Positions 13,136 to 55,126 of a stretch of 64,000 nucleotides of DNA are shown here, one piece after another (position 1 is the stretch's first letter; each line of letters opens with the position of its first letter). The position numbers and the translations under genes are program-made. The notes beneath the pieces are model-generated. The model saw nothing but the letters and a program-made list of their open reading frames with translations, had not been told where the DNA came from and did not search any database. Origin of the DNA: Chloroflexota bacterium (GTDB lineage Bacteria > Chloroflexota > Anaerolineae > Anaerolineales > Anaerolineaceae); the NCBI GenBank assembly GCA_021825925.1, contig JAKAFP010000008.1, positions 62,001 to 126,000 of the forward strand. Reading direction: 5' to 3'.

Positions 13136-14071
13136 TTATGTTCCGTATAATGATTGATGGACTTTGCTCAAAGCCATCACCTGCTCAACTGCATGGTATG
13201 AAGAACGAACAAGCGGTGCACTTTCAACCCATTTGAATCCAATCGCCAACCCATATTCCTTCAATTCAGCGAACTCCTCGAGGGTATAGTAGCGTTCGAT
13301 CGGTATATGCTGTCGGCTGGGCTGCAGGTATTGTCCAATGGTCAAAATATCCACATCCCAAGCTCTCAGATCTTGCATCACCGCTTTAACTTCGTCTAGT
13401 GTTTCACCCAGACCCAACATAATGCCCGATTTGGTCAAAACTTCAGGGTCAAGCCGTTTGGCATTTCTTAATACCGCCTCTGACCATTCGTAATGATCCT
13501 GAGGTTGAACCTTTTTAAACAAGGAAGGTACGGTCTCGACATTATGATTGAGAATCTCAGGTCGTTCATCCATGACAATTTTCAAGGCCGAAAGACTCGC
13601 TTTGAAATCGGGTATTAGTACCTCGATCGAACAGCCGGGTGCCAATTCGCGAATTCTACGGATAATGGCCGCGAAGATCGGCGCACCGCCATCTGCTCGT
13701 TCATCACGATTAACCGAAGTGATCACAGCATGTTTTAAGTTCATTGAGCTAACTGCCTGAGCCACCCGCTCAGGTTCATCCCAATCAAGTTCACCCGGTC
13801 GGCCGTGCTTGACATCGCAAAAACGGCAGGCACGTGTACACACATCGCCAAGGATGAGGAATGTTGCCGTACCACTTCCCCAGCATTCCCCCATGTTAGG
13901 ACAACCGGCCTCTTCACAAACCGTATGAAGTTCCTTGCTGCGCATGAGATGCTGAAGTTGAGCATAGGTTTCGCCATTAGGCGCCTGCACTTTGATCCAC
14001 TCAGGTCTTCGTTGTGGCCGGGGTGTGCTTTGTTCGTTGTTAAGCCGATCTCGAGTAGGGATATGTGCCAT
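13136..14071 (-). CDS. lipA: Lipoyl synthase
   Basis: A radical-SAM enzyme that inserts two sulfurs into octanoyl chains on lipoyl domains. It has the LipA-specific N-terminal cluster [12 protein letters not shown] for the auxiliary 4Fe-4S, and the radical-SAM motif [10 protein letters not shown]. The C-terminal RSSYHA motif supplies the serine ligand typical of LipA. I chose the ATG at 14071 ([11 protein letters not shown]), since AGGAG lies 8 bases upstream; the longer frame to 14128 adds a hydrophobic non-conserved leader. No lipB or lplA is in the window. The ribosome site lies inside the hairpin at 14078-14110. Confidence 0.96.
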
Positions 14072-14110
14072 AAAAAAAACTCCTGCCAGAATTATAACCT
14101 GCCAGGAGTT
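14072..14110 (-). terminator. Terminator of response regulator 1, overlapping the lipA ribosome site
   Basis: On the minus strand the arms aactcctg (14110-14103) and caggagtt (14085-14078) pair, with three more inner pairs after one mismatch, followed by eight T residues that end at the lipA ATG. The 3' arm contains the lipA AGGAG. A TATAAT lies in the loop. Confidence 0.8.
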
Positions 14111-14131
14111 CCAACTCGTAAATAACAAATA

Positions 14132-14881
14132 TCAATTTTCAGTCATCAATTTGTAACCCACACGGTCCACATTCTTGATGACCGGGTTTGTGCTATCTAT
14201 TCTCAAGAACTCCTGCCGCAGTAAATAGATCAGGTACTTCAAACGATTATGGGCGGAGACACTGGTCTCACCCCAGATCTCTTTGGTAATATCATCGTAG
14301 GGCATTACCCGCGGTGCATTGCGGGCTAACACCAGCAGTACTTCAAACATTCTGCCAGTGAGTTGAACACGCTCACCTTTATAGATGATCTCTTGAGAAT
14401 CAAGATCGAGGACCAACTCGATCATGGAAAAACCAAGCCGGTTGATCTTTTGTTTCTTACCACTGCGCCGAAGTACACAATTCACCCGGGCAACCACTTC
14501 AGCCTGATCAAAGGGTTTTGTAATGTAATCATCCATACCCATTTGAAGTGCTTTGACCACATTCTCGGTTTGCTGAGCGGCTGAGACCACGATGACAGGC
14601 AATTCTGATATTTTGCGTAATTGTTGATAGGTTTGCCACCCATCCATCTCGGGCATCATCAGATCAAGAATGATCAAGTTCGGTTTAACATCGGGAATCT
14701 TTCGAAGTGCCTCTTTGCCACTGCTGGCCCCGCTGACGTCAAACCCCTTGGATTGAAACATTAATTTTAACAGTGCGACATTATCCGGTTCATCATCTAT
14801 GAGTAATATTCGCGGATGTTCACCTTGAACTCTTTGGTCCAGGTCAACGCCTTCTTTCATTGTTAGAATTTGTGTAGACAT
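14132..14881 (-). CDS. Response regulator, REC plus winged-helix DNA-binding domain (copy 1)
   Basis: A 249-residue OmpR/PhoB-type regulator. The receiver domain (about 22-140) has the acidic pair DD 29-30, phospho-acceptor D73 (LDLMMPEMD) and the KPF lysine near 120. The C-terminal winged helix (about 150-247) has the usual LTGRMFEVLLVLARN and WGE...RLKYLIYLLRQEFL segments. It is a paralogue of the gene just upstream at 15059-15832, in the same orientation and separated by 226 bases. No histidine kinase is adjacent. The unusual 20-residue N-terminal leader before the receiver is shared in length with the paralogue. Its promoter probably lies in the intervening gap. Confidence 0.9.
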   Translation of the reverse strand: MSTQILTMKEGVDLDQRVQGEHPRILLIDDEPDNVALLKLMFQSKGFDVSGASSGKEALRKIPDVKPNLIILDLMMPEMDGWQTYQQLRKISELPVIVVSAAQQTENVVKALQMGMDDYITKPFDQAEVVARVNCVLRRSGKKQKINRLGFSMIELVLDLDSQEIIYKGERVQLTGRMFEVLLVLARNAPRVMPYDDITKEIWGETSVSAHNRLKYLIYLLRQEFLRIDSTNPVIKNVDRVGYKLMTEN

Positions 14882-15058
14882 AAACAGGCCTTTTTTCTCC
14901 CTTATCGGTTCACCGTTTAATCCTACCTATAATTAGGTATTTTTTAATTCTATCCCGAATCAACTGATTGGGAAATACTTCACAACCAGTTAACAAATGA
15001 GAATGATACATTATCATCCTCATTGTAGCAACAAATCAATTGAGTTCAACCCGTCAGT

Positions 15059-15832
15059 TTACTCGCCGGTGATTAATTTGTAACCCAATCTGTCAATATT
15101 CTCGATGAGTTCAACTTTGTCATCAATCTTTAGAAATTCCTGCCGCAGCAGATAAACCAGGTATTTCAGACGATTACGCACCGAAGCGGAATTTTCGCCC
15201 CACACTTTTTCAGTTAATTCCTGATAATTTACTACTTTGGGAGCTGACTTGGCCAATAACGCCAGCACCTCAAACATCTTGCCGGTTAATTGGATGGTGC
15301 TGCCCTTGTATGTGACTTCATAGGTTTCAAGATCAATGATGAGATCAACACCTGGGAAGGAAAGCACATTCAGCACCATAGGCTTTTCGGCACGGCGCAG
15401 TACGGCATGCACACGGGCCGTCACTTCAGCGCTGTTGAAAGGCTTGGTGATATAGTCATCCACACCACGTTGGAGTAAATTTACGATCTCTTCTTTTTGG
15501 TTTACTGCAGAAAGCACAATAACCGGGATATCATTGATCTTGCGAATCGCATCAAGGGTTTGCCTGCCATCCATCTCAGGCATGAGTAGATCAAGAATTA
15601 CTATCGAAGGGTTTATGTCATTGATCTTCTTGATTGCTTCTCTACCGCTTAATGCCCCCGCAACATTAAATCCGTCATTAATAAAAATATGTTTCAAAAG
15701 GGTGATGGTATCTGGTTCGTCGTCAACCACAAGAATTCGCCGTCGGTTGACTGGTTCCACCTCATCCAGATCCACCCCGCTACCAAACGGCACTGCGTTG
15801 TTCTCGGCGGTTTTGAAAGTATTGGCTATCAT
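15059..15832 (-). CDS. Response regulator, REC plus winged-helix DNA-binding domain (copy 2)
   Basis: A 257-residue paralogue of the regulator at 14132-14881. Conserved receiver residues are DD 37-38, D81 (LDLLMPEMDG) and KPF near 128. The winged helix repeats the LTGKMFEVLALLAKSAPK and VWGENSASVRNRLKYLVYLL pattern. I chose the ATG at 15832, preceded by TTAGGAG four bases away; the frame extends to a TTG at 15871 without a ribosome site. The two copies probably arose by tandem duplication and then diverged. The recognition helices (RNRLKYLVYL versus HNRLKYLIYL) are nearly the same, so they may bind similar sites. Confidence 0.9.
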   Translation of the reverse strand: MIANTFKTAENNAVPFGSGVDLDEVEPVNRRRILVVDDEPDTITLLKHIFINDGFNVAGALSGREAIKKINDINPSIVILDLLMPEMDGRQTLDAIRKINDIPVIVLSAVNQKEEIVNLLQRGVDDYITKPFNSAEVTARVHAVLRRAEKPMVLNVLSFPGVDLIIDLETYEVTYKGSTIQLTGKMFEVLALLAKSAPKVVNYQELTEKVWGENSASVRNRLKYLVYLLRQEFLKIDDKVELIENIDRLGYKLITGE

Positions 15833-16044
15833 GGCACTCCTAAGAATTGCGCAGGCATTTAATTTACCCAAATATTACTATGCCCGTTCGATTTATTGCC
15901 CATTACCGTAAAAACACAATAAAAGTAACTTTAGCAGTAATCTATTAGTATTATAACAGTATAATTTTGGAATTCAAGTAAAAATATCGTAATACACTCA
16001 TCTTTTTACGCCGTGATATACTTTTCTCCGAAAGGATTTCACTC

Positions 16045-16743
16045 ATGCTTGTATTAGTAGCCACCCCAATTGGCAATTTAGGAGATATATCTCAACGTGC
16101 ACTTGCAGCACTTGAATCAGCGGATGTGGTGGTCAGTGAAGACACCCGAAAAACAGGTTTTTTACTCACCCATTTTGACATTAAGAAACCTCAGATCTCT
16201 TTCCGCGAAGACAACGAACAACGTGTCTTGCCTAAAATCATGGAAATCCTTTCTTCTGGCAAGAACGTGGCTCTGGTCACCGATGCCGGTACCCCCTCCA
16301 TTTCGGACCCTGGTTTCATTCTGGTGCGAAGTGCGATTGCCGCCGGTGTTGAAGTAACTGCCATCCCTGGCCCGACCGCCCTGATCATGGCGGTGGTTCT
16401 TTCTGGTTTGCCAGTGCATAGCTTTACCTTCCGCGGATTTCCACCGCGCAAAAGCGGACCACGAAAACGCTGGCTTGAAATTGATCAAAAATCTCCCCAT
16501 ACACTGATCTTCTATGAAAGCCCTCACCGACTGGTTGCCTTTTTACGCGATGCACTCGAGGTCTACGGCGACCGTTCAGCAGTGATCGCCAATGATCTAA
16601 CCAAAAAATTTGAGACCCTCTTTCGAGGGTCCCTGAGTTATTTGATTTTGGAAATGGAAAAAACTGAATTGAAAGGCGAATTCGCCGTGGTCATTGCCAG
16701 CGCGGATTATGCCCTGGTGACCACTTCATTTTCCAATGAGTGA
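16045..16743 (+). CDS. rsmI: 16S rRNA (cytidine-1402-2'-O)-methyltransferase
   Basis: A 232-residue tetrapyrrole-methylase-fold enzyme. It has the RsmI signature [11 protein letters not shown] at the N-terminus, [24 protein letters not shown] and AIPGPTA. It adds the 2'-O-methyl of m4Cm1402 in helix 44 of 16S rRNA, at the ribosomal P site. It is shorter than the E. coli enzyme (about 286) and lacks the C-terminal extension, as some family members do. GAAAGGA precedes the ATG. The 3' end overlaps the convergent transporter gene by 18 bases. It opens a stretch rich in decoding-centre methyltransferases. Confidence 0.95.
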
Positions 16744-17451
16744 AAATCGCGTCTTGGTGTCGTAGTAATCTTCATTCTCAGCGCGTTTCAATTTACTCAC
16801 CACCCAATAGGTAACGGGGGTCATCAACGCTTCGATCAAACATTTGAAGATGTAATTGGCCACGATCAAAGTAAAGAACAGGCTCCACGGAAAAACTCCC
16901 ACCAGACACGCCACTCCGATAAAGATGATGGAATCCACACCCTCGCCCACCAGGGTACTGCCGATGGTGCGCATCCAAAGCCAGCGGCCTTTGGTGGCCA
17001 CCTTCATCTTGGCCAGGATGACCGAGTTGGTGAATTCCCCTGCCAGATAAGCGACCAGGCTGGCCAACACGATACCACCGGTGCTGATGCCGCCCAACAC
17101 ATTATTGAAGGAAGTTTGTCCGGTGCTTTCCATCCAGGTGGCTTCACCCGGCATAATCCGAACGAGCCACAAGACAATAGCTGTTAATGAAAGGCAGGCA
17201 AAGCCCGTCCAGATCACACGGCGCGACTTGCGGAAGCCGTATACTTCTGTAAGGACGTCTCCAAAGATATAGCTGATGGGGAACAGGATCGTACCGGCAT
17301 CAAAGGCCAGGGGTAGACCAAAAAGTGAGACCCCCCAGTCCACGATCTTGGCAGAAGAGGCAATATTGCTGACGATCAACACAGTCACGAAGACGGCCAT
17401 GACCAGGTCAAAGTATCGGTAAACACGAGGTTGTTCAGTTTGTTGATTCAA
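16726..17451 (-). CDS. yhhQ: Queuosine precursor transporter (YhhQ/VUT family)
   Basis: A 241-residue integral membrane protein with about six helices and the family sequences [24 protein letters not shown] and [11 protein letters not shown]. Members import queuosine precursors such as preQ0, preQ1 or queuine. The neighbourhood fits, as a tRNA-guanine transglycosylase homologue lies 3 kb away at 20611-21711, although on a separate transcript. The C-terminal tail ([14 protein letters not shown]) is hydrophilic and overlaps rsmI convergently. No queC, queD, queE or queF is in the window, consistent with salvage but not proof of it. Confidence 0.88.
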
Positions 17452-17510
17452 TCTACTAATTCCTTATACATGAAAAGATGCACCTAGTATAATCGAAGTG
17501 GAGAATAATC

Positions 17511-18239
17511 ATGCACCGATTCTTTATTCCTGCTGAACTCTTTAAAACACCTGAAATCATCCTTCCCAGGGAAACTTCCCAGCAGATCAGTCGTGTACTG
17601 CGACTGAAAACCGGCAGCGAGGTATTACTGCTGGATGACTGCGGTTATGAGTATCCCGCTCGCCTGTCTGAGGTTAATGAGTCGCATTGCATAGCATCCA
17701 TACTTTCGAAACAGGAAGCCCAGGGAGAACCGTTGACCCGGATCACAATGCTGATCGGATTGACCCAACGCGAGAAGTTCGAGTTGATCCTGCAAAAATG
17801 CACCGAGATCGGTGTGACGACTTATGTGCCCATGGTTACCACGCGTACTCTCATTCAAAAAACAAGCGACGTGGAAGATAAAACGCCGCGCTGGAAGAAG
17901 ATCCTGCAGGAAGCCGCTGAACAAAGCCACCGCGGACGCATCCCCGTGCTCTCACCTGCGCTCAAATATGCCGATGCGTTGGCCAGATCCAAAACCGAAG
18001 ACTCCCTCAAGCTGATCCTCTGGGAGGATGAGGCCAATCACTCGATCAAACAGCAGCTGCAAGAGTTCACGGAGAAACAGGTCAGCCTGATCATCGGCCC
18101 TGAAGGCGGACTTTCCGCCGAGGAAGTGGAACTTGCCAAAGCCAGCGGATATATTCCCGTCAGCCTGGGGAAGCGCATTCTACGCATGGAAACCGCCGCC
18201 ATCCACACCGCGGGAGTTGTGTTATACGAATTGGGATAA
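17511..18239 (+). CDS. rsmE: 16S rRNA (uracil-1498-N3)-methyltransferase
   Basis: A 242-residue SPOUT-class enzyme. An N-terminal PUA-like domain (residues 1-70, HRFFIPAELF) is followed by the trefoil-knot domain with LIIGPEGGLSAEEVELA, LGKRILRMETA and a conserved EQSHRGRIP segment. It makes m3U1498 at the base of helix 44, next to the mRNA path. GTGGAG lies upstream of the ATG. The gene is divergent from the transporter gene (60 bases between starts), so the promoters of both must lie in that short gap. The 3' end meets two palindromic repeats and the convergent rsmF. Confidence 0.94.
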   Translation: MHRFFIPAELFKTPEIILPRETSQQISRVLRLKTGSEVLLLDDCGYEYPARLSEVNESHCIASILSKQEAQGEPLTRITMLIGLTQREKFELILQKCTEIGVTTYVPMVTTRTLIQKTSDVEDKTPRWKKILQEAAEQSHRGRIPVLSPALKYADALARSKTEDSLKLILWEDEANHSIKQQLQEFTEKQVSLIIGPEGGLSAEEVELAKASGYIPVSLGKRILRMETAAIHTAGVVLYELG

Positions 18240-18248
18240 AAATTTTTT

Positions 18249-18298
18249 GGGCGGGTTATGAACCCGCCCTGAGCCTTGGGTGGGTCGCGGACCCACCC
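18249..18298. repeat. Two adjacent palindromic repeats between rsmE and rsmF
   Basis: The first has 9-bp arms gggcgggtt/aacccgccc (18249-18257, 18261-18269). The second has gggtgggtc/gacccaccc (18278-18286, 18290-18298). Both have three-base loops. They resemble the palindromes at 56496, 58499 and 59199 and may also terminate the two convergent genes. Confidence 0.8.
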
Positions 18299-19792
18299 CT
18301 ACCTTAAATGCCTCGAGGACAGATTCTTCAAACGGTCTGCCATCATTCTGCCGCGACCGACCACCCTGCCCTGACGATCAATCACTACCCGAATCTCTGT
18401 TTTAGCGTTTACGCCATCCACATACCCCATCAGATCATCCCCCCTAATAAATTCAGCAAAAAGTTCATTCTCCAGCGTGATCAGACAATCCACGCACTGC
18501 GCGCCAAAACGCAGCACCCACTCGTGTGAGGGGATGAAGGCATCACCCTCCCACTCGCCCAACAGCATGCCTGCTGACTGCACCGGCAGGCTGCGGAATT
18601 GTTCGAGCAGCAGCCGTGGAAAGAGAAAGAGGCGAGCATCCCTTTTCACCAGCGTCCGTTGGTGTTCCTGGAGATAAATCGAAAGGTCATAACCGGTCCA
18701 GCTTTTGAAGTCCCTGGCAAATTTCTCGGATTCCGAATAAGTAAGTTCACTAAAACCGGCCGCTTCCATGGAATGGGTTGGCGGCTCCAATGTTTTAAGA
18801 TCCAGGTCGCCGGTCTTCTGGAGCAGACAGGCGAAGAAACCTGCCGTCTGGTAGCGGTGAGGCCATAGGCGCACCACGCGGCTCATATCCGCCTGGTAGG
18901 GGTGTCCATCCAACTGCTGTATGCCAGGGGCAGGCTGCGGCAGTTTGGGGCTTACATCAACCAATTCAACCGCGTGGCCGAATTTACTTAACACAGCCTC
19001 CACCACCCCTTCATCCTCGCCGGGCAGCAGTGTGCAGGTGGAATACACCACCTGGCCGCCAACCTTGACGGCTTGCAGCGCGCTGACCAGCAAAGCGGTC
19101 TGGCGCTGCGCCAACAGGCGGCTTTCCTTATCCGTCACCGGCCTTTCGTCATGCGATTCGGCGGTACGCAGCCCCTGCATGGAACAGGGTGCGTCTATCA
19201 GCGCCCGATCAAAAGTATTCGGGAACCAGCTTCCAAATTTCTCACCGGCAAAGCGAGTCACGGCGGTGTTGGTGGCACCCCAATGCTGCAGCACCACCTT
19301 GAGCGCCTGAATGCGTCCCTGGCTGGAATCATTTGCCAGCACCAGTCCGCGATCGTTTTGGCGCGCCACAATGTGGGTAGTCTTGCCGCCAGGCGACGCT
19401 GCCAGGTCAAGAGTCAACCCCTTTTCTTCGCCATGGACGTCAAAGAGCGCCACCGGCAGCATGGAAGCCGCCTCCTGGATGTAATACTGGCCGGTGCGGT
19501 GCTCGAGGGCGGCACTCACGGCCGGACCGTCGTTCACCTGAACGCGATAACCCTCTTTGCAGAAAGGAATGGGGGTCAGCGTCCAGCCGTAGCGTTTTGA
19601 CAAAGCCTTGGCCAGATCTGCCGGGGCCTTGAGCGGGTTGATGCGGAGTGCGGGAGGCAGCGTTTTTTCAACCTCGATCTGCAGCACGGCAAACTCATCT
19701 GCGCTGAGCATGGGTTGAAAAGCGGCCAATTGCTCCGACTTGGACGGGATGAGATTGAGGGGCTTTTGTGTGGACTTTTTCTTACGTTTCAT
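18299..19792 (-). CDS. rsmF: 16S rRNA (cytosine-1407-C5)-methyltransferase (RsmF-like)
   Basis: A 497-residue NOL1/NOP2/Sun enzyme. The N-terminal part has RYGWTLTPIPFCKEGYRV, nearly the same as E. coli RsmF, and YYIQEAASMLPVALF. The Rossmann SAM motif is LDLAASPGGKTT. The two catalytic cysteines are in DAPCSMQG and YSTCTLL. A C-terminal PUA/ferredoxin-like extension (KRDARLFLFPR onward) is also RsmF-like. RsmF makes m5C1407 in helix 44. The gene starts six bases after the RmtB-like gene, so the two are co-transcribed. This matters because G1405 and C1407 methylations sit two bases apart. Assignment to C1407 rather than another cytosine is by family similarity. Confidence 0.88.
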   Translation of the reverse strand: MKRKKKSTQKPLNLIPSKSEQLAAFQPMLSADEFAVLQIEVEKTLPPALRINPLKAPADLAKALSKRYGWTLTPIPFCKEGYRVQVNDGPAVSAALEHRTGQYYIQEAASMLPVALFDVHGEEKGLTLDLAASPGGKTTHIVARQNDRGLVLANDSSQGRIQALKVVLQHWGATNTAVTRFAGEKFGSWFPNTFDRALIDAPCSMQGLRTAESHDERPVTDKESRLLAQRQTALLVSALQAVKVGGQVVYSTCTLLPGEDEGVVEAVLSKFGHAVELVDVSPKLPQPAPGIQQLDGHPYQADMSRVVRLWPHRYQTAGFFACLLQKTGDLDLKTLEPPTHSMEAAGFSELTYSESEKFARDFKSWTGYDLSIYLQEHQRTLVKRDARLFLFPRLLLEQFRSLPVQSAGMLLGEWEGDAFIPSHEWVLRFGAQCVDCLITLENELFAEFIRGDDLMGYVDGVNAKTEIRVVIDRQGRVVGRGRMMADRLKNLSSRHLR

Positions 19793-19798
19793 CAGTGC

Positions 19799-20611
19799 TC
19801 ACTTTTCGATCAAAAAAGCCAGTTCACCGGTGAATTCCATTTTGGTGACTTTCCAGCTTTCCCCTTCGATCAATTGATTAAATCGGGTTTCGTAATTCTG
19901 CAGCATACCTTTGGATTTTCCGCCCAGACTATGTGCCGGGAAGGATGCTAGGATGTATTGCGCATACAAGCCCTGAAGGAGGCGTTTGGCGGCATTCTTG
20001 TCCACCTGATCCAGACAGGGGATGGTTTTGAGAAGTAACGCAACCTGCACGGACACCGATGGCACTGATTGTGTCAAGTCAACCACCGACGCTTTGCCAT
20101 TGATCTTAAAATGGGCAAACCAGGCATTGAGATAACCGGTCATATCGGCATAGATGTCACAGGCGGTGTATTCCATATCAGCGGCGGCAGGCATCCACGG
20201 CAGGCAGAGCGGATTGAGTCCGCAGGCCAAGTCGAGGATGGAATGGAGCGGTGCGATGGATCCCAGCGCATCCTTGAAAAAATGCGGCAAAATGGATAAT
20301 CGTTCGGCGGTGGAGGCGTGCATGCCCATCTGGCGTTTGAGGGTCGCCGTAACCTGTTCATCCTGTAGATCAACCGGCAGCTGGGCTAGTTCCTCCAGCC
20401 ATGCGGCATAGGGGATGGGTTTTTCTTGAAAGGCCGAACCCACCTGATGCAGCTTGTTGCGCGTCTCTTTAACCGCTTCTTTCAAGTTGCGGCGTTTGGC
20501 AAGTTCCTTGGCGCCGATCTCACGCACCAGGTCAGGTGAAATGGAAGCATATTTATCCGAAGCCGTCACCAGGCTGATCAGTTCTGCAAGCAGTTCGGTT
20601 GGCGTAGACAT
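19799..20611 (-). CDS. ArmA/RmtB/FmrO-family 16S rRNA (guanine-1405-N7)-methyltransferase homologue
   Basis: A 270-residue protein with the whole motif series of the aminoglycoside-resistance G1405 methyltransferases: KY-SPDLVREI near 20-32, KLHQ 53-56, HASTAER 98-104, the SAM loop LDLACGLNP 126-134, CDIY, LLLKTIPCLD 192-201 and ASFPAHSLGGKSKGM-QNY 222-240, ending in TGELAFLIEK. ArmA and RmtB share each block. Those enzymes make m7G1405 in helix 44 and give high resistance to 4,6-disubstituted deoxystreptamines. The ATG at 20611 shares its A with the tgt stop (TGATG), so I preferred it to a 50-residue longer frame that overlaps tgt. It sits in a chromosomal RNA-modification operon with no mobile element or antibiotic cluster nearby, so a housekeeping role is possible. 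Confidence 0.88.
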   Translation of the reverse strand: MSTPTELLAELISLVTASDKYASISPDLVREIGAKELAKRRNLKEAVKETRNKLHQVGSAFQEKPIPYAAWLEELAQLPVDLQDEQVTATLKRQMGMHASTAERLSILPHFFKDALGSIAPLHSILDLACGLNPLCLPWMPAAADMEYTACDIYADMTGYLNAWFAHFKINGKASVVDLTQSVPSVSVQVALLLKTIPCLDQVDKNAAKRLLQGLYAQYILASFPAHSLGGKSKGMLQNYETRFNQLIEGESWKVTKMEFTGELAFLIEK

Positions 20612-21711
20612 CAGGCAAACTTTCCCTGAATACGTTCGCACAACTGCACCATAAAACGCAGGTTGTGCAGGGTCGCCAGACGGAAGAACAGGGTATCGCC
20701 CATCTTGAACAGATGATGCAAATAACCCATGGAATAGTGCTTGCAGCATGGACAATCGCAATCCTCGCTGATGGGGCGGTCTGCCTTGATGTGCTCCTCG
20801 TCGTTGATGTACTTGAAGCCAAACCAGTCACCGTTCAGCCCAAAATCCGGTCCCTGCGCACTTTGGCGGAAGGTGAACAATCGTCCATGCCGGGCGTCAC
20901 GGGTGGGCATGGCGCAGTCGAAAATATCGTAACCCAGCTCGAAACAGGCCAGCACATTCTCAGGATGCCCGATGCCCAGGGCATGCATGGGATACTCATC
21001 CGGGATGATGCTGCGGGTGTAACCAATAATGTCAGCCAGCAGGTGGTTATTCTTATCCAGCGGCCAGCCGCCAAAACCGTAACCGTCAAAGCCGATCTCG
21101 AGCAGCGCCTCGGCGCAGCGCAGGCGAAGTTCGGGGTATCCTCCGCCCTGCACCACAGCAAACAAGCGCGGACGGGTTTCTTCGGTCAGCTTCTTTTGCT
21201 CGATGATGCGGTTGAATTCCTTCCTGCTTTTCTTCGCCCAGGCGATCGTGCGTTCCACGGATTCCTTCTGGGCGGCCAGGTTTTCATCCACATTGGTGCA
21301 GTCATCCAGGCAGATGACCACATCGGAATCGTAACCGATCTGAAGCTGCACGGTCTTCTCTGGCGTCAGTTGAAACTTGCGAGTACTGCCTTCCGGTTGG
21401 AAGCTGATGCCTTTTTCGTGGATGCTGCCAAATTTTGGGTTTTGGCGAATGAGCGAGTACGCCTGGAACCCGCCTGAATCGGTGACGATGTTGCGCTTCC
21501 AGTTCGACATCTTGTGCAGCCCGCCCAACGACTGGATGGTCGAGGAACCGGGTTTCTGCATCAGGTGGAAGGTGTTCATCACCAGCGCTTCAATGCCGAT
21601 CGAGAGCAGGTCTTCTGAATCCACCGAACGCACCACACCAAAGGTGGCATCCGGCAGGTAAATGGGCGAACGCACTTCGCCCTGGGTTAGTTTAAGGAGT
21701 CGGGGTTTCAT
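20611..21711 (-). CDS. tgt: tRNA-guanine transglycosylase homologue with altered base-binding loop
   Basis: A 366-residue TIM-barrel enzyme that swaps guanine-34 of tRNA for a 7-deazaguanine. It keeps the general base D78 (TDSGGFQ), the nucleophile D265 (IFDCAMPTRDARHG) and the zinc site CDCPCC (318-323) with a histidine at 332-333. It differs from classical bacterial Tgt: the substrate loop GGLAVGE reads GGWPLDK (214-220), and the FDECTPYP segment reads LDDCTNVDEN. The enzyme may therefore take a different base or tRNA set. It starts four bases inside the end of the DUF3052 gene (ATGA) and its stop overlaps the start of the RmtB-like gene. Confidence 0.86.
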   Translation of the reverse strand: MKPRLLKLTQGEVRSPIYLPDATFGVVRSVDSEDLLSIGIEALVMNTFHLMQKPGSSTIQSLGGLHKMSNWKRNIVTDSGGFQAYSLIRQNPKFGSIHEKGISFQPEGSTRKFQLTPEKTVQLQIGYDSDVVICLDDCTNVDENLAAQKESVERTIAWAKKSRKEFNRIIEQKKLTEETRPRLFAVVQGGGYPELRLRCAEALLEIGFDGYGFGGWPLDKNNHLLADIIGYTRSIIPDEYPMHALGIGHPENVLACFELGYDIFDCAMPTRDARHGRLFTFRQSAQGPDFGLNGDWFGFKYINDEEHIKADRPISEDCDCPCCKHYSMGYLHHLFKMGDTLFFRLATLHNLRFMVQLCERIQGKFA

Positions 21712-22091
21712 AAGCGCTTCATCCGAAAAGCGGACCAGGTTTCATCCACGGAAGTCATGGCCACACCCGTCCAGCCAATGGTGGCGGCGTATTGAAAGAT
21801 CTTGTCGCGGTTCACATCCGAGCGCAAGGCGGAGGTCAACTTGGGATAGATCACCCACAGGATGCCGCCAGGGGTCAGAGCATCCGCAGCTGCCGAGAGG
21901 CCGGTCTTGAGCCATTCCATGTTTTTCACAAAAAACAGCACCACATCTGCTTTGTCAAATTTAGGGGCCATCTTGGAGCGTTCAGGCAGAGGACCTAATA
22001 GAGAGTTAAATCCATCTGGTGGATTGATCAGCCGCAGTGTGCGGCCGGGTTTTACCTGTAAGCGTTCACATAAAGATTTTTCGCTGGACAT
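21708..22091 (-). CDS. DUF3052 family protein
   Basis: A 127-residue protein resembling DUF3052. It begins with SLCERLQVKPGRTLRLINPP, has an ADVVLFFVKN strand, and keeps the family's GGILWVIYPK, SDVNRD and SVDETWSAFRMK segments. No catalytic residue set is recognisable and the function of the family is unknown. The frame opens earlier, at 22160, but the ATG at 22091 begins the conserved part. Its ATGA overlap with tgt makes it the first gene of a four-gene RNA-modification operon, so a role with RNA or nucleotides is a reasonable inference and no more. Confidence 0.72.
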   Translation of the reverse strand: MSSEKSLCERLQVKPGRTLRLINPPDGFNSLLGPLPERSKMAPKFDKADVVLFFVKNMEWLKTGLSAAADALTPGGILWVIYPKLTSALRSDVNRDKIFQYAATIGWTGVAMTSVDETWSAFRMKRL

Positions 22092-22173
22092 ACCCTGATT
22101 ATAAAGGAGATTTGAGGGTTTCGGATTTGATGAACTTGTTTTACTCGTTCTATAAAACACCCCTCACCCCAAA

Positions 22174-22199
22174 CCCCTCTCCCAAGCCTGGGAGAGGGG
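22174..22199. repeat. Palindromic repeat, copy A
   Basis: Arms cccctctccca and tgggagagggg with a four-base loop. The same palindrome with one loop difference recurs at 25654-25679. It lies between the starts of the RNA-modification operon and the end of the MFS gene. Confidence 0.85.
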
Positions 22200-22286
22200 A
22201 AAAGAAATCGAATTAATTGAGCAATGAAATCAGGCGAGAGGGCAAACGATCTTTTAACTAATATAAGCATGGATTGCATTAATTTC

Positions 22287-23543
22287 CTACGCTGCTTCTA
22301 CACCCTTGAACTCTGGCACCTTGCGCATGGCCAGGGCAGACCACAGCATGAGCACGGCAGAGATGGCAAAGAGAGCCGTCCAGCCCCACCAGTGGCCTGG
22401 CGCGGCATTATTGAGCACATCGGTCATGGGGCCTTCCAGACGGGCTACGGCGGCGGAACCGGCGGTGGCCAGGTTGGTCAGACCGATGTATTTACCCACA
22501 TCCCCGGCAGGGGCCATTTGGTTGGCCAGCGCCCAGTTGGTGGCAAGAAAGATACCCAGCCCGGCACCCAAAATGCTGCCAAAGAGGATCAATTGGAAAG
22601 GCGTCACAGCAAAGATAACCAGGATGGCACCCAAAGCGCCAACAAATGAAGAGACAATTTGCAGGCGTTTGCGCCCGATCCTGTCGCTCCAGCGGCCTGA
22701 AAACAGTGAGAATATGATCAACACGATCACGAAGGAGCCCATCACGAACTGGGTGAATTGGATGGGGTCCTGGCTGCTGAACTTGTCGCGGATGAAGTAC
22801 TGCGCGAAAGATTGAAAACCGTAAATACCCACAAGGTAGAGAAAGCGGCTGAAGATCAGGCGCCAGTAATTCCTGTCACCATCCGCTTTGAAGTAGAAAA
22901 CGGATTTCCATAAAGCCTTCCAGTCCACACGGGTGCGCTGGGTGACATAGGTGGATTTTTCATGCGACCCGAGCAGGGTGATCAAGCCAAAGACCACCAG
23001 CAGCCCAATGATGACGATTGTAGAGAGGGTCGGGTCGGGATCCTTGGCCGAGATCAAAAAACCCATCAGCAAAGAGGACAGGATAATGCCGGCCATGTCG
23101 AGGGTGGTCTTGATGCCGCTGGCCATGCCCAACTGCGAGGCAGGTACTTCATCCGGCAGCAAGCCCTGGGCGGGACCATGAGCGATATTTGAACTGGTCT
23201 GAAGGCCAATATAGCCGATGAAGAGCGCGGGCAGTCCGCCGATGAAGCCCATGATCGCCAGAAAGACCAAATCCCCGCCGGTGCCGAGCCACATAAAAGG
23301 GCGGCGGCGTCCCAATTTGGATTGCCAGCGGTCGCTGATGGCGCCCGAAAGCGGCTGGATCAGCATGGCCAGGATCAGACCGAAAAAGGTCAGCAGTCCA
23401 AGCCAGGTGTTCTTCTGGGTTTCAGGTACGTACTTGAGCAGCACAGCCGGCAGAATGGTCACATGCAGGCTGTTCCACATGAATGAAAGGCCTATCCAGT
23501 AGGCATTGAGCACAAAAATATACCAGCCGCTGACTCGTTTCAT
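22287..23543 (-). CDS. MFS transporter, sugar/cation symporter-like (SLC45-like)
   Basis: A 418-residue protein with twelve predicted membrane helices. The loop 2-3 motif is SGAISDRWQSKLGRRRPFMW and the loop 8-9 equivalent is SGRWSDRIGRKRLQ, both MFS hallmarks. The early GRRRPFMWLG segment is typical of the sucrose or melibiose-type (SLC45, GPH-like) branch. The substrate cannot be read. It is the last gene of a minus-strand operon with a VOC protein 36 bases upstream, an alpha/beta hydrolase and a fatty acid hydroxylase. CAGGAG lies seven bases before the ATG. Confidence 0.85.
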   Translation of the reverse strand: MKRVSGWYIFVLNAYWIGLSFMWNSLHVTILPAVLLKYVPETQKNTWLGLLTFFGLILAMLIQPLSGAISDRWQSKLGRRRPFMWLGTGGDLVFLAIMGFIGGLPALFIGYIGLQTSSNIAHGPAQGLLPDEVPASQLGMASGIKTTLDMAGIILSSLLMGFLISAKDPDPTLSTIVIIGLLVVFGLITLLGSHEKSTYVTQRTRVDWKALWKSVFYFKADGDRNYWRLIFSRFLYLVGIYGFQSFAQYFIRDKFSSQDPIQFTQFVMGSFVIVLIIFSLFSGRWSDRIGRKRLQIVSSFVGALGAILVIFAVTPFQLILFGSILGAGLGIFLATNWALANQMAPAGDVGKYIGLTNLATAGSAAVARLEGPMTDVLNNAAPGHWWGWTALFAISAVLMLWSALAMRKVPEFKGVEAA

Positions 23544-23579
23544 AATGAGCTCCTGCGATGAAGAGGTTAAATAGAGATC

Positions 23580-24044
23580 TCAAATTCCTAAAAGTTCATT
23601 AACTTTTTCGATAGTATAGTTTGTGAAGTCAGCGATTTCTTGTACTGATTTTCCTTCATCCACTAACCGACGACAAACAACAGACATTGTCTCAGCCACT
23701 TCGTTGATATGTCCGTCACAATCATAAAAACGGAAGTTTTTTTGCTTCCACGGCTGCTCTTGAATGCGATGGACAAATTCAAAACCAGCCTGCAGAATGG
23801 CTTTTTCCATGCTCTCAAGGTCTTCCACTTCAAAGTAGAGCACCACACTATTGGACTTTGTTTGAACTTGCAAACCACCGGTCAGGTTCTGGAAAAGCTC
23901 GCGTTGATAAAGCGAAAGCCCTCCTTCAAGGCCGACATTATAGATGCCGTGATCTTCGGTCACCTTCATCCCCATGATCTTCTCATAGAGTTGACGTGAA
24001 CGAAGGACGTCTTCAACAACGATGATTGATGATAAAAAGCTCAT
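23580..24044 (-). CDS. VOC (glyoxalase/bleomycin-resistance) superfamily protein
   Basis: A 154-residue protein. It has the paired beta-alpha-beta-beta-beta modules of the VOC fold: IIVVEDVLRSRQLYEKIMG at the start, then NSVVLYFEVEDLESMEKAI and FRFYDCDGHINEVAE at the second module, where H and E are possible metal ligands. About 30 residues of helical tail follow. The ATG at 24044 has GGGAGGGAG ahead of it; the frame's upstream TTG at 24056 would overlap that ribosome site. It lies in an operon with a hydrolase 18 bases upstream and an MFS transporter downstream. Substrate unknown. Confidence 0.82.
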   Translation of the reverse strand: MSFLSSIIVVEDVLRSRQLYEKIMGMKVTEDHGIYNVGLEGGLSLYQRELFQNLTGGLQVQTKSNSVVLYFEVEDLESMEKAILQAGFEFVHRIQEQPWKQKNFRFYDCDGHINEVAETMSVVCRRLVDEGKSVQEIADFTNYTIEKVNELLGI

Positions 24045-24062
24045 TCTCCCTCCCAAAAGAAA

Positions 24063-24938
24063 CTATGCTCGTTTGATATTGGCATCGAAAAAGTCGATCA
24101 CTTTTTCAATGTAAAGTTCGGGGTTTACCAGATCCACTTCACGGTGGCGGGCGCCAGACACGCGCCACAAGTTCAAGTTGCCTTTGGATTTGGCCATCAT
24201 TTTGTTTAATTCCTTGTTGCGTGTGTAAGGGTCCTTGTCGCCATGGATGAGCAGTACCGGCGTTGGAGCGATCTTGCCGCCCACCACCAACGGATCGTTG
24301 CGGAAGAGATTGGTCAACAATCTGAGCGATGCACCCAACAAGATCATGAATGCGAGGATGCCTGACAAGTTATCCGGCACTTTGCGGCGCCGCAGGTCCA
24401 TACTAACGGCGGTGCTCAGGCGCAGCGGACCGCCATCAGAGATGACAGCCTGAATGCCCGGATGCTGGGCGGCGGCCAACAGCGCGGCCCTGCCGCCCAT
24501 TGAGAAGCCCATCAACCCGATGGACCAACTGTTGCAGGATTTGGCAAAATGGATTGCGCCGATGACGTCGTTGACCTCGAGTGCGCCCAGGCTGGAGCGA
24601 TTGCCGTGGCTGCGTCCGTGAGCGCGGAAGTCAAACATCAAGACGTTGTAGCCCGCCTGGATGAAGGCAGGCAAGTACTTAAGGTCGGGATCCATGCTGC
24701 CGGCAAAGCCGTGCAGAAAGATGATCGTGTTCGGCGAACCTTCCGCCGGGATCCACCAACCAGAAAGGGTGATGCCATCCGCGGAAGGGAAATGGACAGG
24801 GTTGAAATCGAGTCCAAGGTCCGCGGGGGAGCGAAAATCTTTCAGGCTGTGCCGTTTGGTTAACGGGATGGACAAGACCAGGCAAACTGCCAGGAAAAGT
24901 AACACAACAATTGCAGCGGTAAAGAAATATGAGTTCAT
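24063..24938 (-). CDS. Membrane-anchored alpha/beta hydrolase
   Basis: A 291-residue protein with a single N-terminal membrane helix (residues 5-25) and an alpha/beta-hydrolase domain. The oxyanion region is FLHGFAGS, the nucleophile elbow GFSMGG, an acid candidate in LIHGDKDPYT and the histidine in GARHREVD. It resembles the BEM46/FrsA-like serine hydrolases. The start overlaps the end of the fatty acid hydroxylase gene by four bases (ATGA), so the two are translationally coupled. That suggests a lipid substrate, which is inference. Confidence 0.85.
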   Translation of the reverse strand: MNSYFFTAAIVVLLFLAVCLVLSIPLTKRHSLKDFRSPADLGLDFNPVHFPSADGITLSGWWIPAEGSPNTIIFLHGFAGSMDPDLKYLPAFIQAGYNVLMFDFRAHGRSHGNRSSLGALEVNDVIGAIHFAKSCNSWSIGLMGFSMGGRAALLAAAQHPGIQAVISDGGPLRLSTAVSMDLRRRKVPDNLSGILAFMILLGASLRLLTNLFRNDPLVVGGKIAPTPVLLIHGDKDPYTRNKELNKMMAKSKGNLNLWRVSGARHREVDLVNPELYIEKVIDFFDANIKRA

Positions 24939-25573
24939 TCGGTCGGTTTTGTTTTGAAAACGTAATCCCAGAGGGGTGAGCTGACGCCGTAGCGAGCATT
25001 GGGGGTCTTGTAATGATGCTGCATATGGTAGCGTTTGATGAATTTGGCATAGCCGCTGCGCATGGGGAAGTGATGCGTGGCGTAATGGGTCAGATCGTAA
25101 GTCAGGTAGCCCAAAATGAAAGCAGAAAAGATGGGGTCAAACCAGAGCGGCGCTTGTAGAAGGACCTTGATCACCAGATAAAACAATCCATAAAAGACAG
25201 CAGCCAATGGGATAGCCACGATCGGCGGCATGACCAGGCGGGTCTTGCACTGCGGCTGGGCATGGTGCACGCCGTGGAAGAGGAAGGTGACACGCTGACC
25301 GCGTTCCGATTTGGCAGCAAAGTGGAAGAGGAAACGGTGCAGCAGATACTCCGAGAGGGTCCAGACGAAGAGTCCGATCAGCAAACCGAGGGGGATGTAG
25401 AAGGGAAATCCGTGGATGGGTGCTTCGGCGATGGAGCGGCCAAGGAAGAAGACTGCCACCGGCAGCCAGATGATGGTAACCGTCACCGGGCTGATGTGTG
25501 AGAAGAATTCCATGAAATCCGATTTAAACAGACGGATGGGCACGTCGCTGTGATCAATGGGTAAATGGCTCAT
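24935..25573 (-). CDS. Fatty acid hydroxylase/sterol desaturase family protein
   Basis: A 212-residue integral membrane protein with the eight-histidine di-iron signature: HRFLFHF, HGVHH, HYATHH and HMQHHY. The arrangement and the SEYLLHR start resemble the Scs7/FA2H lipid 2-hydroxylase branch. About four membrane helices are seen. These enzymes need oxygen, which is notable in a group of mostly anaerobic bacteria. I chose the ATG at 25573, preceded by GGAGG; the longer frame to 25654 has no such site and its leader is not conserved. It is the first gene of a four-gene operon. Confidence 0.88.
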   Translation of the reverse strand: MSHLPIDHSDVPIRLFKSDFMEFFSHISPVTVTIIWLPVAVFFLGRSIAEAPIHGFPFYIPLGLLIGLFVWTLSEYLLHRFLFHFAAKSERGQRVTFLFHGVHHAQPQCKTRLVMPPIVAIPLAAVFYGLFYLVIKVLLQAPLWFDPIFSAFILGYLTYDLTHYATHHFPMRSGYAKFIKRYHMQHHYKTPNARYGVSSPLWDYVFKTKPTE

Positions 25574-25653
25574 CAGTAGACCTCCACAAATAAGATAGTT
25601 AATTGTACAACATGTGTAAAGTGTCATTGCTTTTTTTCGCCCTCTCCCCTGCA

Positions 25654-25679
25654 CCCCTCTCCCAGGCTTGGGAGAGGGG
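25654..25679. repeat. Palindromic repeat, copy B
   Basis: Same arms as the palindrome at 22174-22199 (cccctctccca / tgggagagggg); the four-base loop differs. Both sit upstream of a minus-strand operon. Confidence 0.85.
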
Positions 25680-25700
25680 AAAAAGCTTTGAAGTTCAGAC

Positions 25701-25733
25701 CCCCGCGGTTTTAAGAGCAGAAACCGCGGGGGT
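25701..25733. repeat. GC-rich palindrome
   Basis: Perfect 12-bp arms cccccgcggttt / aaaccgcggggg around a nine-base loop. No T-run follows on either strand. Confidence 0.75.
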
Positions 25734-25783
25734 CGTGTTATTCCGGCAGGTCTTGCTTTTTCACAATGACAATTTATTACGTC

Positions 25784-25812
25784 GCCCCCCTTCTTGACTA
25801 GGGAAGGGGGGC
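25784..25812. repeat. GC-rich palindrome
   Basis: Nine-bp arms gcccccctt / aaggggggc with an 11-base loop, about 200 bases past the chemoreceptor stop. Confidence 0.65.
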
Positions 25813-26012
25813 TGTAAAAAGGAGGGAAATGATCAGTTGACTGATCATAAAATCAATTTAAATGCAGTGGCAAACATATTAGTTCAATGTTTGTCACTAC
25901 CAATAAACGAGTTTTCTAGACAACTAATGAAAAAGATTTTGCTGATTATACAACTTTTTCCGGGAGTGAGATTAAATTCCACCCGACCAGAGTTGGTTGC
26001 AGGCACAGTCCT

Positions 26013-28532
26013 CTATTCAAGGGTGAAGTTGTTGGAGGCCTTGCGAAGCTGCTGCATCATCTCGACCAGGTGTTCAATGGAACTCTTGAATTCCGAAACC
26101 TGAGCGGTGACCTCTTCAGTAGAAGCAGAGGTTTCTTCAATGGCAGCGCTGCTTTCCTGACTGATGGAGGCGATGTTTTCAATGGCCTCATTGGCAACGA
26201 TCGAGTTGGCCGCCATTTCGGCTGCCTCACCGCGGTTCGTTTCAACAATTTCAGCCATCTGCAGCATGGCCTTTTCGAGCTGGCTGGCAGAAACGCCGAT
26301 CTTATTGGCCACTTCCGCAGCCTTTGCCGCCTGTGCGGTCACCGTCTCTGCGCTCTCGAGAATCTTCTGCAATGATTGACCCGATTTTTCAGCTTTACCC
26401 ACGCCGGAATCCACTTCTTTGGAGCTTTCCTCCATGGCAAGGACTGCTTCACGCACGGTGGTCTGGATGCGATGCACAAGGTCGCTGATCTCTTTGGTGG
26501 AGGTGGAGGAACGTTCTGAAAGCTTCCTTACCTCATCCGCCACAACGGCAAAACCCTTGCCATGCTCACCCGCCCTCGCGGCTTCGATGGCAGCGTTCAA
26601 CGCCAATAAGTTGGTCTGAGAGGCAATATCATCAATGGTTTCAACAATGCGGCCAATCTCTTCTGACCGTTCGCCCATCTCGTGGACTTTTCCAGCCGAG
26701 ATGTTAACCTTGGTTTGGATCTTTTTCATGCCCTCAAGCGTGGCATCCACGGTCAAGACGCCTTCTGATGCCGAATCCGCGGCAGACTGGGCTTGCTGCT
26801 GCACCGATTGGGTGTGCTCCCCGACTTCCTGAATGGCAAGGGTGATTTGATTGGACTTTTCTGACACTTCGGTGACAACCTGTGCCTGTTCCTGTGACAC
26901 TTTATCCACGCGGTTGATGGAATTGCTTAACTGCTCAATGATGGCAGTGGTTTTGGTCACACTGGCTGCCTGCTGGGAGGCTCCCTTGGCGATTTCCTGA
27001 ATGGTGACTGCAATTTGCGAGGTGGCCTGGTTTACCTGGGTAGATCCGTCAGCCAATTGTGCTGATTCATCATCAAGAATGGCGACGCCCTGTTTTAAGA
27101 TGGAGATGGTATCGCGTAAATTAACCAGCATTTCCTCAAACGCGGTTCCAAGCACATCCTTGGGATTGATTCGTGTAAGCTGAATGGACAAATCCCCTTT
27201 GGAGATGGATTGGGCCGCGCCGGCAATGTTTTGAATATAGGCAATCAAGTTTCTGAAGGCGTCGGCCAGATCGCCGGTTTCATCTTTGGCAGCATAAGTG
27301 ATCTCATGATAAATATCGCCTACTGCCAGTTGTTTGGCGGTTTTGGTTAACGACACCAATGGGTTGGCGATCTTGGAAGCGAGGAAAAAGACTACCACTG
27401 AACAGATGGCAGCGAGTCCCAAACCGAACAGGATGAACATCCACATCATCTGCGCCTGGGTCTTGCGAAGAGTAGCAAAGAATCCCTGATAATCGGATTC
27501 ATTGGCGTTGATCAAGATCACCCAATCCCAGGGGGCATAATAAGCAACTTCAACAAGCTGCTGCGATTGGTCGTTTCTGGAGGTATAACGAAAACTGGTG
27601 GTCTCGCCGGGGGGTAAGGCAATCGCTGCGTTGATGATCTCCTGGATGATCAGATTGCCATCGTTATCCTGTTGTTCCCAGGCGGATTGCCCGTCAAGGG
27701 AACTATCATGGGAGATAAGATACTTGCCCTTCTGATCGTTCTTGCCACCCAGGATGGAAATATAACCGGTGGTGCCCACTTTGGTCTGCTGGATGGCATT
27801 CCTCAGTGTAGCCACGCTCTCTTGTTTCACCCCCACCGAAAGGACAGCAATGATCTCATTCTTATCATTGGTCACCGGGTGGAAGGCTGTGATGTACCAT
27901 GCATCCACCTCATAAGAAGTGCCAATATAATCTTCGCCTCCCATGACCTTGGTATAGATCAGGTTGTCACTGCCATCGGGATTTTGTGCGGGTATATAAG
28001 TCCCCAGAGCGCGGTTTCCGTCCGAGTTGATCACGTTGGTCGCCACTCTCAATAACCCGGCGTTGTCAGGCATGGGTTGATAAATGGTGGCTTTGGCGTT
28101 GATCAGACTCTGCATCTCATCAATGGCTGGAATCGCAACTTTGGCGTTGGTCACCTTTCCCAGCCACTTATCACCCAAAATCAGTTGGGGCAGCATGACC
28201 CCTTGAGATTTCTTGGTTAATTGATTGATGACTGCCCAGACAACGGTCTGGTCATAGACGCTCAAACCACCTTCACTTTCGACCAATTTCTTCAGAACGT
28301 TCAAGCCACCCTGCACTTGTAGTGAGATGGCCTCATCCTGTGATTTAACCAAATTGTACGTATCCGTGGTAATTTGACTGATCTCTTTTTGTATGAATTC
28401 ATTGGCTTGTTGGGTTGACTTTTTTTCGGCAATCTTGGATTGCCAAACCCCAACGATGGCTAAAACCAATGCAGTGATCACGACGCTGGTGACACCCAGT
28501 AAGACCAGTTTTGTGCGTATGTTAAATTTCAT
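26013..28532 (-). CDS. Methyl-accepting chemotaxis protein with Cache sensor
   Basis: An 839-residue transmembrane chemoreceptor. TM1 is about residues 10-30, then a large extracytoplasmic Cache_3-Cache_2-type sensor (35-360) with the typical [17 protein letters not shown] and [11 protein letters not shown] segments. TM2 is about 368-390, HAMP 390-445, and a long helical signalling domain has the conserved hairpin tip [32 protein letters not shown] (written here only by its ends: [11 protein letters not shown] to [10 protein letters not shown]). No cheA, cheW or cheR is in the window. Cache domains bind small metabolites such as organic acids. The C-terminus lacks a visible CheR-docking pentapeptide. 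Confidence 0.92.
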
Positions 28533-55002: not shown

Positions 55003-55107
55003 CTTCTATCCAGAGAGGCGGAGGGATCGGCCCTACGAAGCCTCGGCAACCAGAACGGCGCAAGCTTTTCATGGTGCTAATTCCGACAGAATAAACTGGA
55101 AGATAGG
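55003..55107 (+). ncRNA. SAM-I (S-box) riboswitch
   Basis: The consensus core is present: agagaggcggaggga (after the P1 arm ctatc at 55006), cggccctacgaagcctcggcaaccag (in parts: ggccct, cggcaacc), atggtgctaattcc and gacaga, closing with gatag at 55102-55106. It precedes metK, one of its standard targets. A hairpin with weak T-run follows, as expected for the expression platform. Confidence 0.93.
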
Positions 55108-55126
55108 AGGGCAAGCCGCAAGAATG

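Follow-up and report, generated by a model that had tools for sequence, protein, structure and literature searches.

The gene under study lies on the minus strand of a 64,000-nucleotide stretch of DNA, referred to here as the window, from an Anaerolineaceae genome of the phylum Chloroflexota (3.4 Mb, 84% complete, 5.6% contamination), and encodes a protein that we call Rmt1 (Table 1). Its open reading frame starts with ATG and is free of internal stops. An alternative longer frame from a TTG at 20761 is present in the sequence, but the alignments with close relatives begin at the first residue of the ATG form (L145 and L146 over residues 1-270, L144 over 1-269). The protein matches a single Pfam family, FmrO (PF07091), with 164 bits and an E-value of 5.7e-48 (curated cut-off 27), almost over its full length (residues 18-264, profile positions 2-252 of 255). 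In a phmmer search of the PDB sequences the top match is Sgm (3lcu, E 6.5e-44), followed by RmtA/RmtB-type, RmtF, ArmA and RmtC chains, and the motifs LDLACGLNP, K195-x-x-P198 and SFPAHSLGGKSKGMLQNY are all present. The AlphaFold model (mean pLDDT 95.2) combines a Rossmann methyltransferase domain with a helical N-terminal domain resembling those of Sgm and RmtB; Foldseek returns Sgm 3lcu as the top solved structure (rmsd 2.1 A, TM 0.89/0.92), and after it RmtC, RmtF, RmtB and ArmA chains, including the 30S-bound RmtC chain 8ghu. Chance similarity is ruled out by the E-values and the fold, and rmt1 is a real, intact member of the FmrO family. The sequence-only reading, which had named an ArmA/RmtB/FmrO-type homologue with the blocks LDLACGLNP, KxxP and a KGM-NY core and had proposed the PF07091 comparison, is thus borne out by profile, sequence, motif and fold.

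The start codon of rmt1 (20611-20609) has one base in common with the stop codon of the upstream gene, which encodes a divergent tRNA-guanine transglycosylase paralogue (TGT2), and the gene for an RsmF-like m5C methyltransferase starts 6 bases downstream of the rmt1 stop, so that the adjacency to rsmF claimed earlier is real. The top NCBIfam match of the latter protein is RsmF with 268.8 bits, below the cut-off of 588. A DUF3052-like frame at the head of the operon overlaps the TGT2 start by 4 bases and was found in nearer relatives only. Beyond rsmF lie genes for an RsmE-like methyltransferase, a YhhQ-type queuosine-precursor transporter and a protein that we take to be RsmI-like, a name based on its sequence together with its Pfam TP_methylase match. 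Neither a transposase, an integrase nor an antibiotic-biosynthesis protein was found among the 14 neighbours scanned with Pfam (13136-28532), in agreement with the earlier statement that no transposase or antibiotic cluster lies nearby. Elsewhere in the window, two response regulators of like domain architecture lie beside a lipoyl-synthase-like gene, and a SAM riboswitch is the only Rfam match over threshold.

Table 1. Features of the window in order of position
Feature	Position	Strand	Remarks
Response regulator	14132..14881	-	
Response regulator	15059..15871	-	
RsmI-like methyltransferase	16045..16743	+	PF00590; family target C1402; conserved neighbour
YhhQ-type queuosine-precursor transporter	16726..17451	-	TIGR00697, 112.3 bits (cut-off 50.95)
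RsmE-like methyltransferase	17511..18239	+	PF04452, NCBIfam RsmE family; family target U1498
RsmF-like m5C methyltransferase	18299..19792	-	PF01189 and PF17125; family target C1407; next in operon
Rmt1, FmrO-family methyltransferase	19799..20611	-	270 aa
TGT2, divergent tRNA-guanine transglycosylase paralogue	20611..21711	-	366 aa; GGWPLDK replacing GG[LV][SA]VGE
DUF3052-like frame	21708..22160	-	operon head; 21.8 bits, narrowly under cut-off 22.7
SAM riboswitch	55003..55109	+	RF00162, 80.9 bits

FmrO homologues occur in 109 of the 396 genomes drawn from the class (107 of them above the Pfam cut-off) and in 77 of 400 drawn from the phylum Chloroflexota, the two draws overlapping; within the class draw, 9 of the 10 other genomes of the same family carry one. 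Many genomes have two tandem paralogues, namely Rmt1, which is the type found in the window, and Rmt2, which forms a single clade of 27 rows (support 100/100) and from which the KGM segment is gone. Rmt2 was sought in the genome of the window and in the fetched stretches of the three closest named relatives, and none was found. The gene order in Anaerolineaceae is tgt - rmt1 - rmt2 - rsmF, followed by rsmE, yhhQ and rsmI on varying strands. When the count is restricted to distinct proteins flanked by 1.1 kb or more on both sides, a tgt paralogue lies on the same strand upstream of Rmt1 in 97 of 123 cases and downstream in 4, and the gene downstream of Rmt2 is rsmF in 37 of 54 cases and rsmE in 12. 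Among the 80 named loci most similar to the window protein, 73 have a tgt-like gene within the stretch. Copies of Rmt2 that lack the KGM segment still stand beside rsmF or rsmE (L051, L055, L078 and others); possibly Rmt2 methylates a different nucleotide or serves as a partner subunit. An additional rsmI often precedes TGT2 in Anaerolineaceae; in several of them (L033, L035-L040) this divergent second RsmI has 32-37% identity. One genome of the family (G253; L034, 9445-10260, minus strand) is a single case: it has no TGT2, and its sole FmrO homologue, from which the KGM segment is gone, forms a long branch.

The closest named homologues of Rmt1 come from Anaerolineaceae and Chloroflexi assemblies and share 84-85% identity with it. 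A tree built from 110 FmrO proteins puts the protein of the window into an Anaerolineaceae-type clade of 25 rows (support 99/96), which itself nests in a Chloroflexota clade of 72 rows (100/96); this tree is unrooted, has weak deep forks and omits the long branch of G253 as well as a spurious extraction (L020_29), both of which were part of an earlier tree. Pairwise comparison with three close relatives gives dN/dS values of 0.084-0.114 (Rmt1), 0.030-0.034 (TGT2) and 0.067-0.080 (rsmF). Rmt1 is under purifying selection and, judging from the sequence comparisons, looks vertically inherited in Anaerolineaceae. The phylogeny that had been proposed as a check therefore places Rmt1 within the FmrO family, among Anaerolineaceae homologues, and the suggestion of an intrinsic form gains support from this nesting, from the dN/dS values of 0.08-0.11 and from the conserved neighbourhood. 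The alternative suggestion of a natural reservoir is unsupported, since the plasmid-borne enzymes compared here share 23-29% identity with Rmt1 and fall outside the main Chloroflexota clade. Recent horizontal transfer was rejected because the window protein is nested among Anaerolineaceae, and a phage or viral source was likewise discarded, no relative having been found in a single-protein scan of viral_contigs. Two records labelled Acinetobacter phage gave an armA-like match at 29%, and two assemblies labelled Poribacteria and Proteobacteria (L156, L170) carry rsmI-tgt2-rmt1, which may reflect transfer or mis-binning. TGT2-linked Rmt1 proteins occur in the main clade and in two deeper groups (L120/L121/L126 and L009/L123), between which Sgm branches with weak support (87/81, 84/64), and the six reference enzymes are monophyletic in only 12% of the bootstrap trees; accordingly, the tree favours no particular descent of the resistance enzymes and speaks neither for nor against the ancestral form suggested by the sequence-only reading.

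With regard to tgt, the sequence-only reading was right about the one-base overlap and wrong about the housekeeping identity of the gene. The gene adjoining rmt1 is a divergent second Tgt paralogue: the canonical tgt of this genome resides on another contig (G000:C14) and scores 514.4 bits against TIGR00430, compared with 318.8 bits for TGT2, which is narrowly over the curated cut-off of 306.75, and several TGT2 proteins of other genomes score below it. In a tree, TGT2 and canonical TGT form separate clades of 53 and 22 rows (support 100/100). A profile built from 50 window-type TGT2 proteins gives 362-658 bits for phylum-draw matches at an E-value of 1e-100 or better and at most 289 bits for canonical-type matches (46 discordant class-draw genomes and nine others).

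With this profile, TGT2 was found in 69 of the 400 phylum-draw genomes, each of which belongs to the 77 that carry an FmrO homologue (Fisher p 5e-69, shared ancestry being ignored). Eight genomes of this draw have FmrO and no TGT2 match at threshold, of which two (G138 and G659) carry TGT2 in pieces; in G138 it is split over two frames (L048, 7854-9015, plus strand). The distance between TGT2 and Rmt1 is within 600 bases in 57 of the 69 genomes and 1.3-7.6 kb in 5, and the two genes are 319 kb apart on one contig in a single genome (G067) and on different contigs in 6; these seven separated pairs indicate that the association does not come from adjacency alone. In the class draw, at least two Tgt matches were counted in 68 of 109 FmrO genomes versus 5 of 287 without FmrO, the counts resting on the canonical model, and the TGT2 model having been applied to the 46 discordant genomes and nine others rather than to each of the 68 concordant ones. 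The 41 genomes with FmrO only comprise, according to the TGT2 profile, 3 that have TGT2, 36 with canonical-level matches only and 2 with none, so that 38 of the 109 have FmrO without TGT2; the five exceptions with at least two Tgt matches and no FmrO have canonical-level or fragmentary matches only. TGT2 without FmrO was found neither in the 400 phylum-draw genomes nor in the class-draw genomes to which the TGT2 profile was applied. This pattern suggests that the FmrO methyltransferase and TGT2 work together on decoding RNA.

The model of TGT2 (mean pLDDT 93.8) superimposes on Zymomonas mobilis Tgt (1ozm) with 1.8 A and TM 0.89/0.87 at 31% identity in the fold alignment. Among 123 TGT2 proteins, compared in Z. 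mobilis numbering with 21 canonical Tgt proteins, Asp102, Ser103, Asp156, Gly230 and Asp280 are each kept in 123, Gln203 in 122 and the zinc ligands in 122, 118, 122 and 123; Arg286 and Arg289, the tRNA-contact arginines, are kept in 121 and 123, respectively. The retention of Asp102, Asp156 and Asp280 together with Gln203 and Gly230 implies that a guanine-type base still fits. At the canonical positions Lys52 and Glu339, which form a salt bridge of the Tgt dimer interface, TGT2 has Arg in 118 of 123 and Asp in 112 of 123, respectively, and TGT2 may accordingly pair with itself. The difference from canonical Tgt lies in the base pocket: residue 231 is Trp in 121 of 123, residue 232, the Ala232 position, is Pro in all 123 and in 0 of the 21 canonical proteins, Asp occupies position 234 in 118, and at position 235, where 20 of 21 canonical proteins have Glu, TGT2 mostly carries Ser, Ala, Gly or Lys. 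The TGT2 of the window has Trp-Pro at 231-232 and Lys at 235 and thus lacks the guanine- or preQ1-reading combination of Leu231-Ala/Ser232 with Glu235. A family known to methylate guanine at N7 is hence linked with a guanine transglycosylase changed where N7 is read. As proline has no NH, the atom beside position 7 would be expected no longer to recognise N7 as an unmethylated acceptor the way canonical Tgt does. In Z. mobilis Tgt, according to PMC3660597, the 231/232 peptide flips, turning its NH to guanine or its C=O to preQ1, and is stabilised by Glu235. PMC9299380 describes 7-methylguanine as a competitive inhibitor of Tgt, from which it follows that 7-methylguanine can enter such a pocket.

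The putative specificity of Rmt1 for G1405 was approached by two routes. Against NF000466, the curated NCBIfam equivalog of Rmt-family 16S G1405-N7 methyltransferases (cut-off 250 bits), Rmt1 scores 208.1 bits, below the cut-off, and the controls pass (Sgm 300.2, RmtB 325.8, ArmA 320.5, RmtC 327.2 bits). All 54 Rmt1 proteins of one alignment match this model, the best with an E-value of 8.9e-73, which, converted from the bits and E-value of the window protein, would correspond to about 245 bits, still under 250. The second route concerns positions of RmtC taken to be relevant to 30S binding, counted over 147 Rmt1 and 65 Rmt2 proteins that were labelled by identity to seed sequences and include the spurious L020_29. 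The Arg50 position is Lys or Arg in 144 of the 147 Rmt1 (R in the window), the His54 position His in 146 (H), and the Arg241 position Lys or Arg in 128 (K). At the position of Met245, Met stands in 145 of the 147 Rmt1, including that of the window, in 6 of 6 known enzymes and in 4 of 65 Rmt2; with the KGM segment kept in Rmt1 and lost in Rmt2, the constraint on it is specific. The Lys72 and Arg211 positions are changed, to E and Q in the window, and Gln stands at 211 in 130 of 147 Rmt1. The 16S rRNA of the host has a standard A site with G1405, so that the putative target nucleotide exists.

From our point of view, the best explanation, to which we assign a probability of roughly 60%, is that Rmt1 is a constitutive G1405-type methyltransferase within a block of decoding-site modification genes and that TGT2 is a functional partner depending on the methyltransferase or its product. 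Most likely, N7 methylation of G1405 (helix 44, 30S subunit) by Rmt1 would belong to the normal set of rRNA modifications, and the enzyme would be expressed together with RsmF and TGT2, beside the RsmE- and RsmI-family genes, with TGT2 acting after or beside it; G1405 as target, the constitutive mode of expression and any step shared with TGT2 are what we infer. Family, fold, motifs, the conserved neighbourhood and the co-occurrence with TGT2 favour a decoding-site methyltransferase, and the known 16S targets of RsmF, RsmI and RsmE lie around G1405, as stated in PMC12406665. The G1405 account is weakened by the NF000466 score under the cut-off, by the changed positions 72 and 211 and by the FmrO genomes without TGT2. 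In addition, known G1405 enzymes expressed in E. coli interfere with RsmF or RsmI, and most of them increase decoding errors (PMC12406665), which is hard to reconcile with a constitutive methylation encoded next to rsmF. As to TGT2, a reaction on the methylated base is an appealing possibility in view of its one-way dependence on FmrO and its altered position-7 site, and a tRNA substrate is just as plausible in view of its conserved arginines that contact tRNA.

A possible alternative, though one that we would not expect to hold, is that Rmt1 modifies the ribosome while TGT2, in a reaction of its own, changes the wobble bases of some tRNAs and so offsets a changed decoding. This would fit with the conserved tRNA-contact arginines and zinc site of TGT2 and with a co-occurrence that holds without adjacency; furthermore, G1405 methylation alters decoding accuracy in E. 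coli (PMC12406665), and in a different bacterium the tolerance of aminoglycosides is influenced by Q34 (PMC11703503). Taken alone, however, it leaves the complete change around position 7 in every TGT2 unexplained.

It also seems unlikely that the FmrO enzyme was retargeted in Chloroflexota to tRNA or another RNA instead of G1405. Since Tgt acts on tRNA, the tight linkage of Rmt1 with a member of this enzyme family could indicate a tRNA target, and the score under the NCBI cut-off as well as the changes at some RmtC positions point in the same direction. However, Rmt1 retains the KGM segment and the full motif set, whose Met245 position is Met in so few Rmt2, and its neighbours are rsmF and members of the rsmE and rsmI families.

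More doubtful still is a methylation-primed base exchange, in which Rmt1 would make m7G at a chosen site and TGT2 would then replace it, either by guanine, which would make TGT2 an eraser, or by a 7-deazaguanine, for example preQ1, as a hypermodification; the proline-locked pocket of TGT2 would then, with the same low probability, recognise m7G as leaving group in ribosomal or transfer RNA. The absence of TGT2 without FmrO in 400 genomes speaks for such an exchange, as do the retention of the catalytic and guanine-binding residues alongside the Leu231-Ala232 to Trp-Pro change and the loss of Glu235, the fact that proline alters the peptide whose NH/C=O flip is described for Z. mobilis Tgt (PMC3660597), and the inhibition of Tgt by 7-methylguanine (PMC9299380), which can thus enter such a pocket. 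On the other hand, the retained Arg286 and Arg289 suit a tRNA-like U-G-U substrate rather than helix 44, and the proline may simply tune the choice among 7-deazaguanines. Moreover, no 16S sequence feature setting TGT2 carriers apart was seen in helix 44 of the 26 of 27 loci in which the A-site pattern was found; this pattern fixes the central letters and left L291 unmatched, and of the 41 genomes in which 16S was sought 15 gave no match.

That rmt1 serves specifically for aminoglycoside resistance or self-protection, or was acquired recently, is very improbable in spite of the homology to resistance enzymes, given a conserved chromosomal block whose 14 scanned neighbours include no mobile or biosynthetic gene, the vertical pattern in the FmrO tree, the presence of the family in 109 of the 396 genomes of the class draw and 77 of the 400 of the phylum draw, and the coupling to TGT2.

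Compared with the G1405 N7-methyltransferases of antibiotic producers, Rmt1 has the same motif set and finds its best match in both sequence and fold in Sgm of Micromonospora (3lcu; 32% identity in the fold alignment), but it lacks an antibiotic cluster, is coupled to TGT2 and falls below the equivalog cut-off that Sgm passes. With the plasmid-borne enzymes ArmA, RmtB, RmtC, RmtF and RmtH it has in common the Pfam family, the fold and the KGM-NY core, whereas it is chromosomal and apparently vertically inherited. TGT2 resembles Z. mobilis Tgt in its fold and its catalytic and zinc residues and differs from it by Trp-Pro in place of Leu-Ala, the lost Glu235, its separate clade and its presence in addition to a canonical gene. 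Like the DNA-modifying DpdA, a TGT paralogue with a new task according to PMC6884629, it may have acquired another function, yet it scores only 20.9 bits against DpdA (cut-off 200), and the window has no neighbouring genes for DNA modification. Nanoarchaeota are reported to have an FmrO-like gene (PMC3655853), and chromosomal homologues outside of producers are hence not unprecedented. A literature search, of partial wider coverage, on Chloroflexi together with G1405 16S methyltransferases, FmrO or a Tgt paralogue returned no report, and PMC6416219, on resistance genes from soil, turned out to have no connection with methyltransferases.

If the preferred reading of Rmt1 as a constitutive decoding-site methyltransferase is true, an enzyme type known for last-resort aminoglycoside resistance would natively serve a physiological function in a large part of one phylum, whose carriers include cultured and testable organisms such as Bellilinea caldifistulae, Dictyobacter kobayashii and Ktedonosporobacter rubrisoli, and the dependent TGT paralogue would offer a concrete handle on this role. 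TGT2 itself would add a subfamily of RNA-guanine transglycosylases whose base pocket is altered, and the finding could account for the toleration or removal of the costly G1405 mark. Should the base exchange prove correct, it would possibly be the system from which the resistance methyltransferases later detached.
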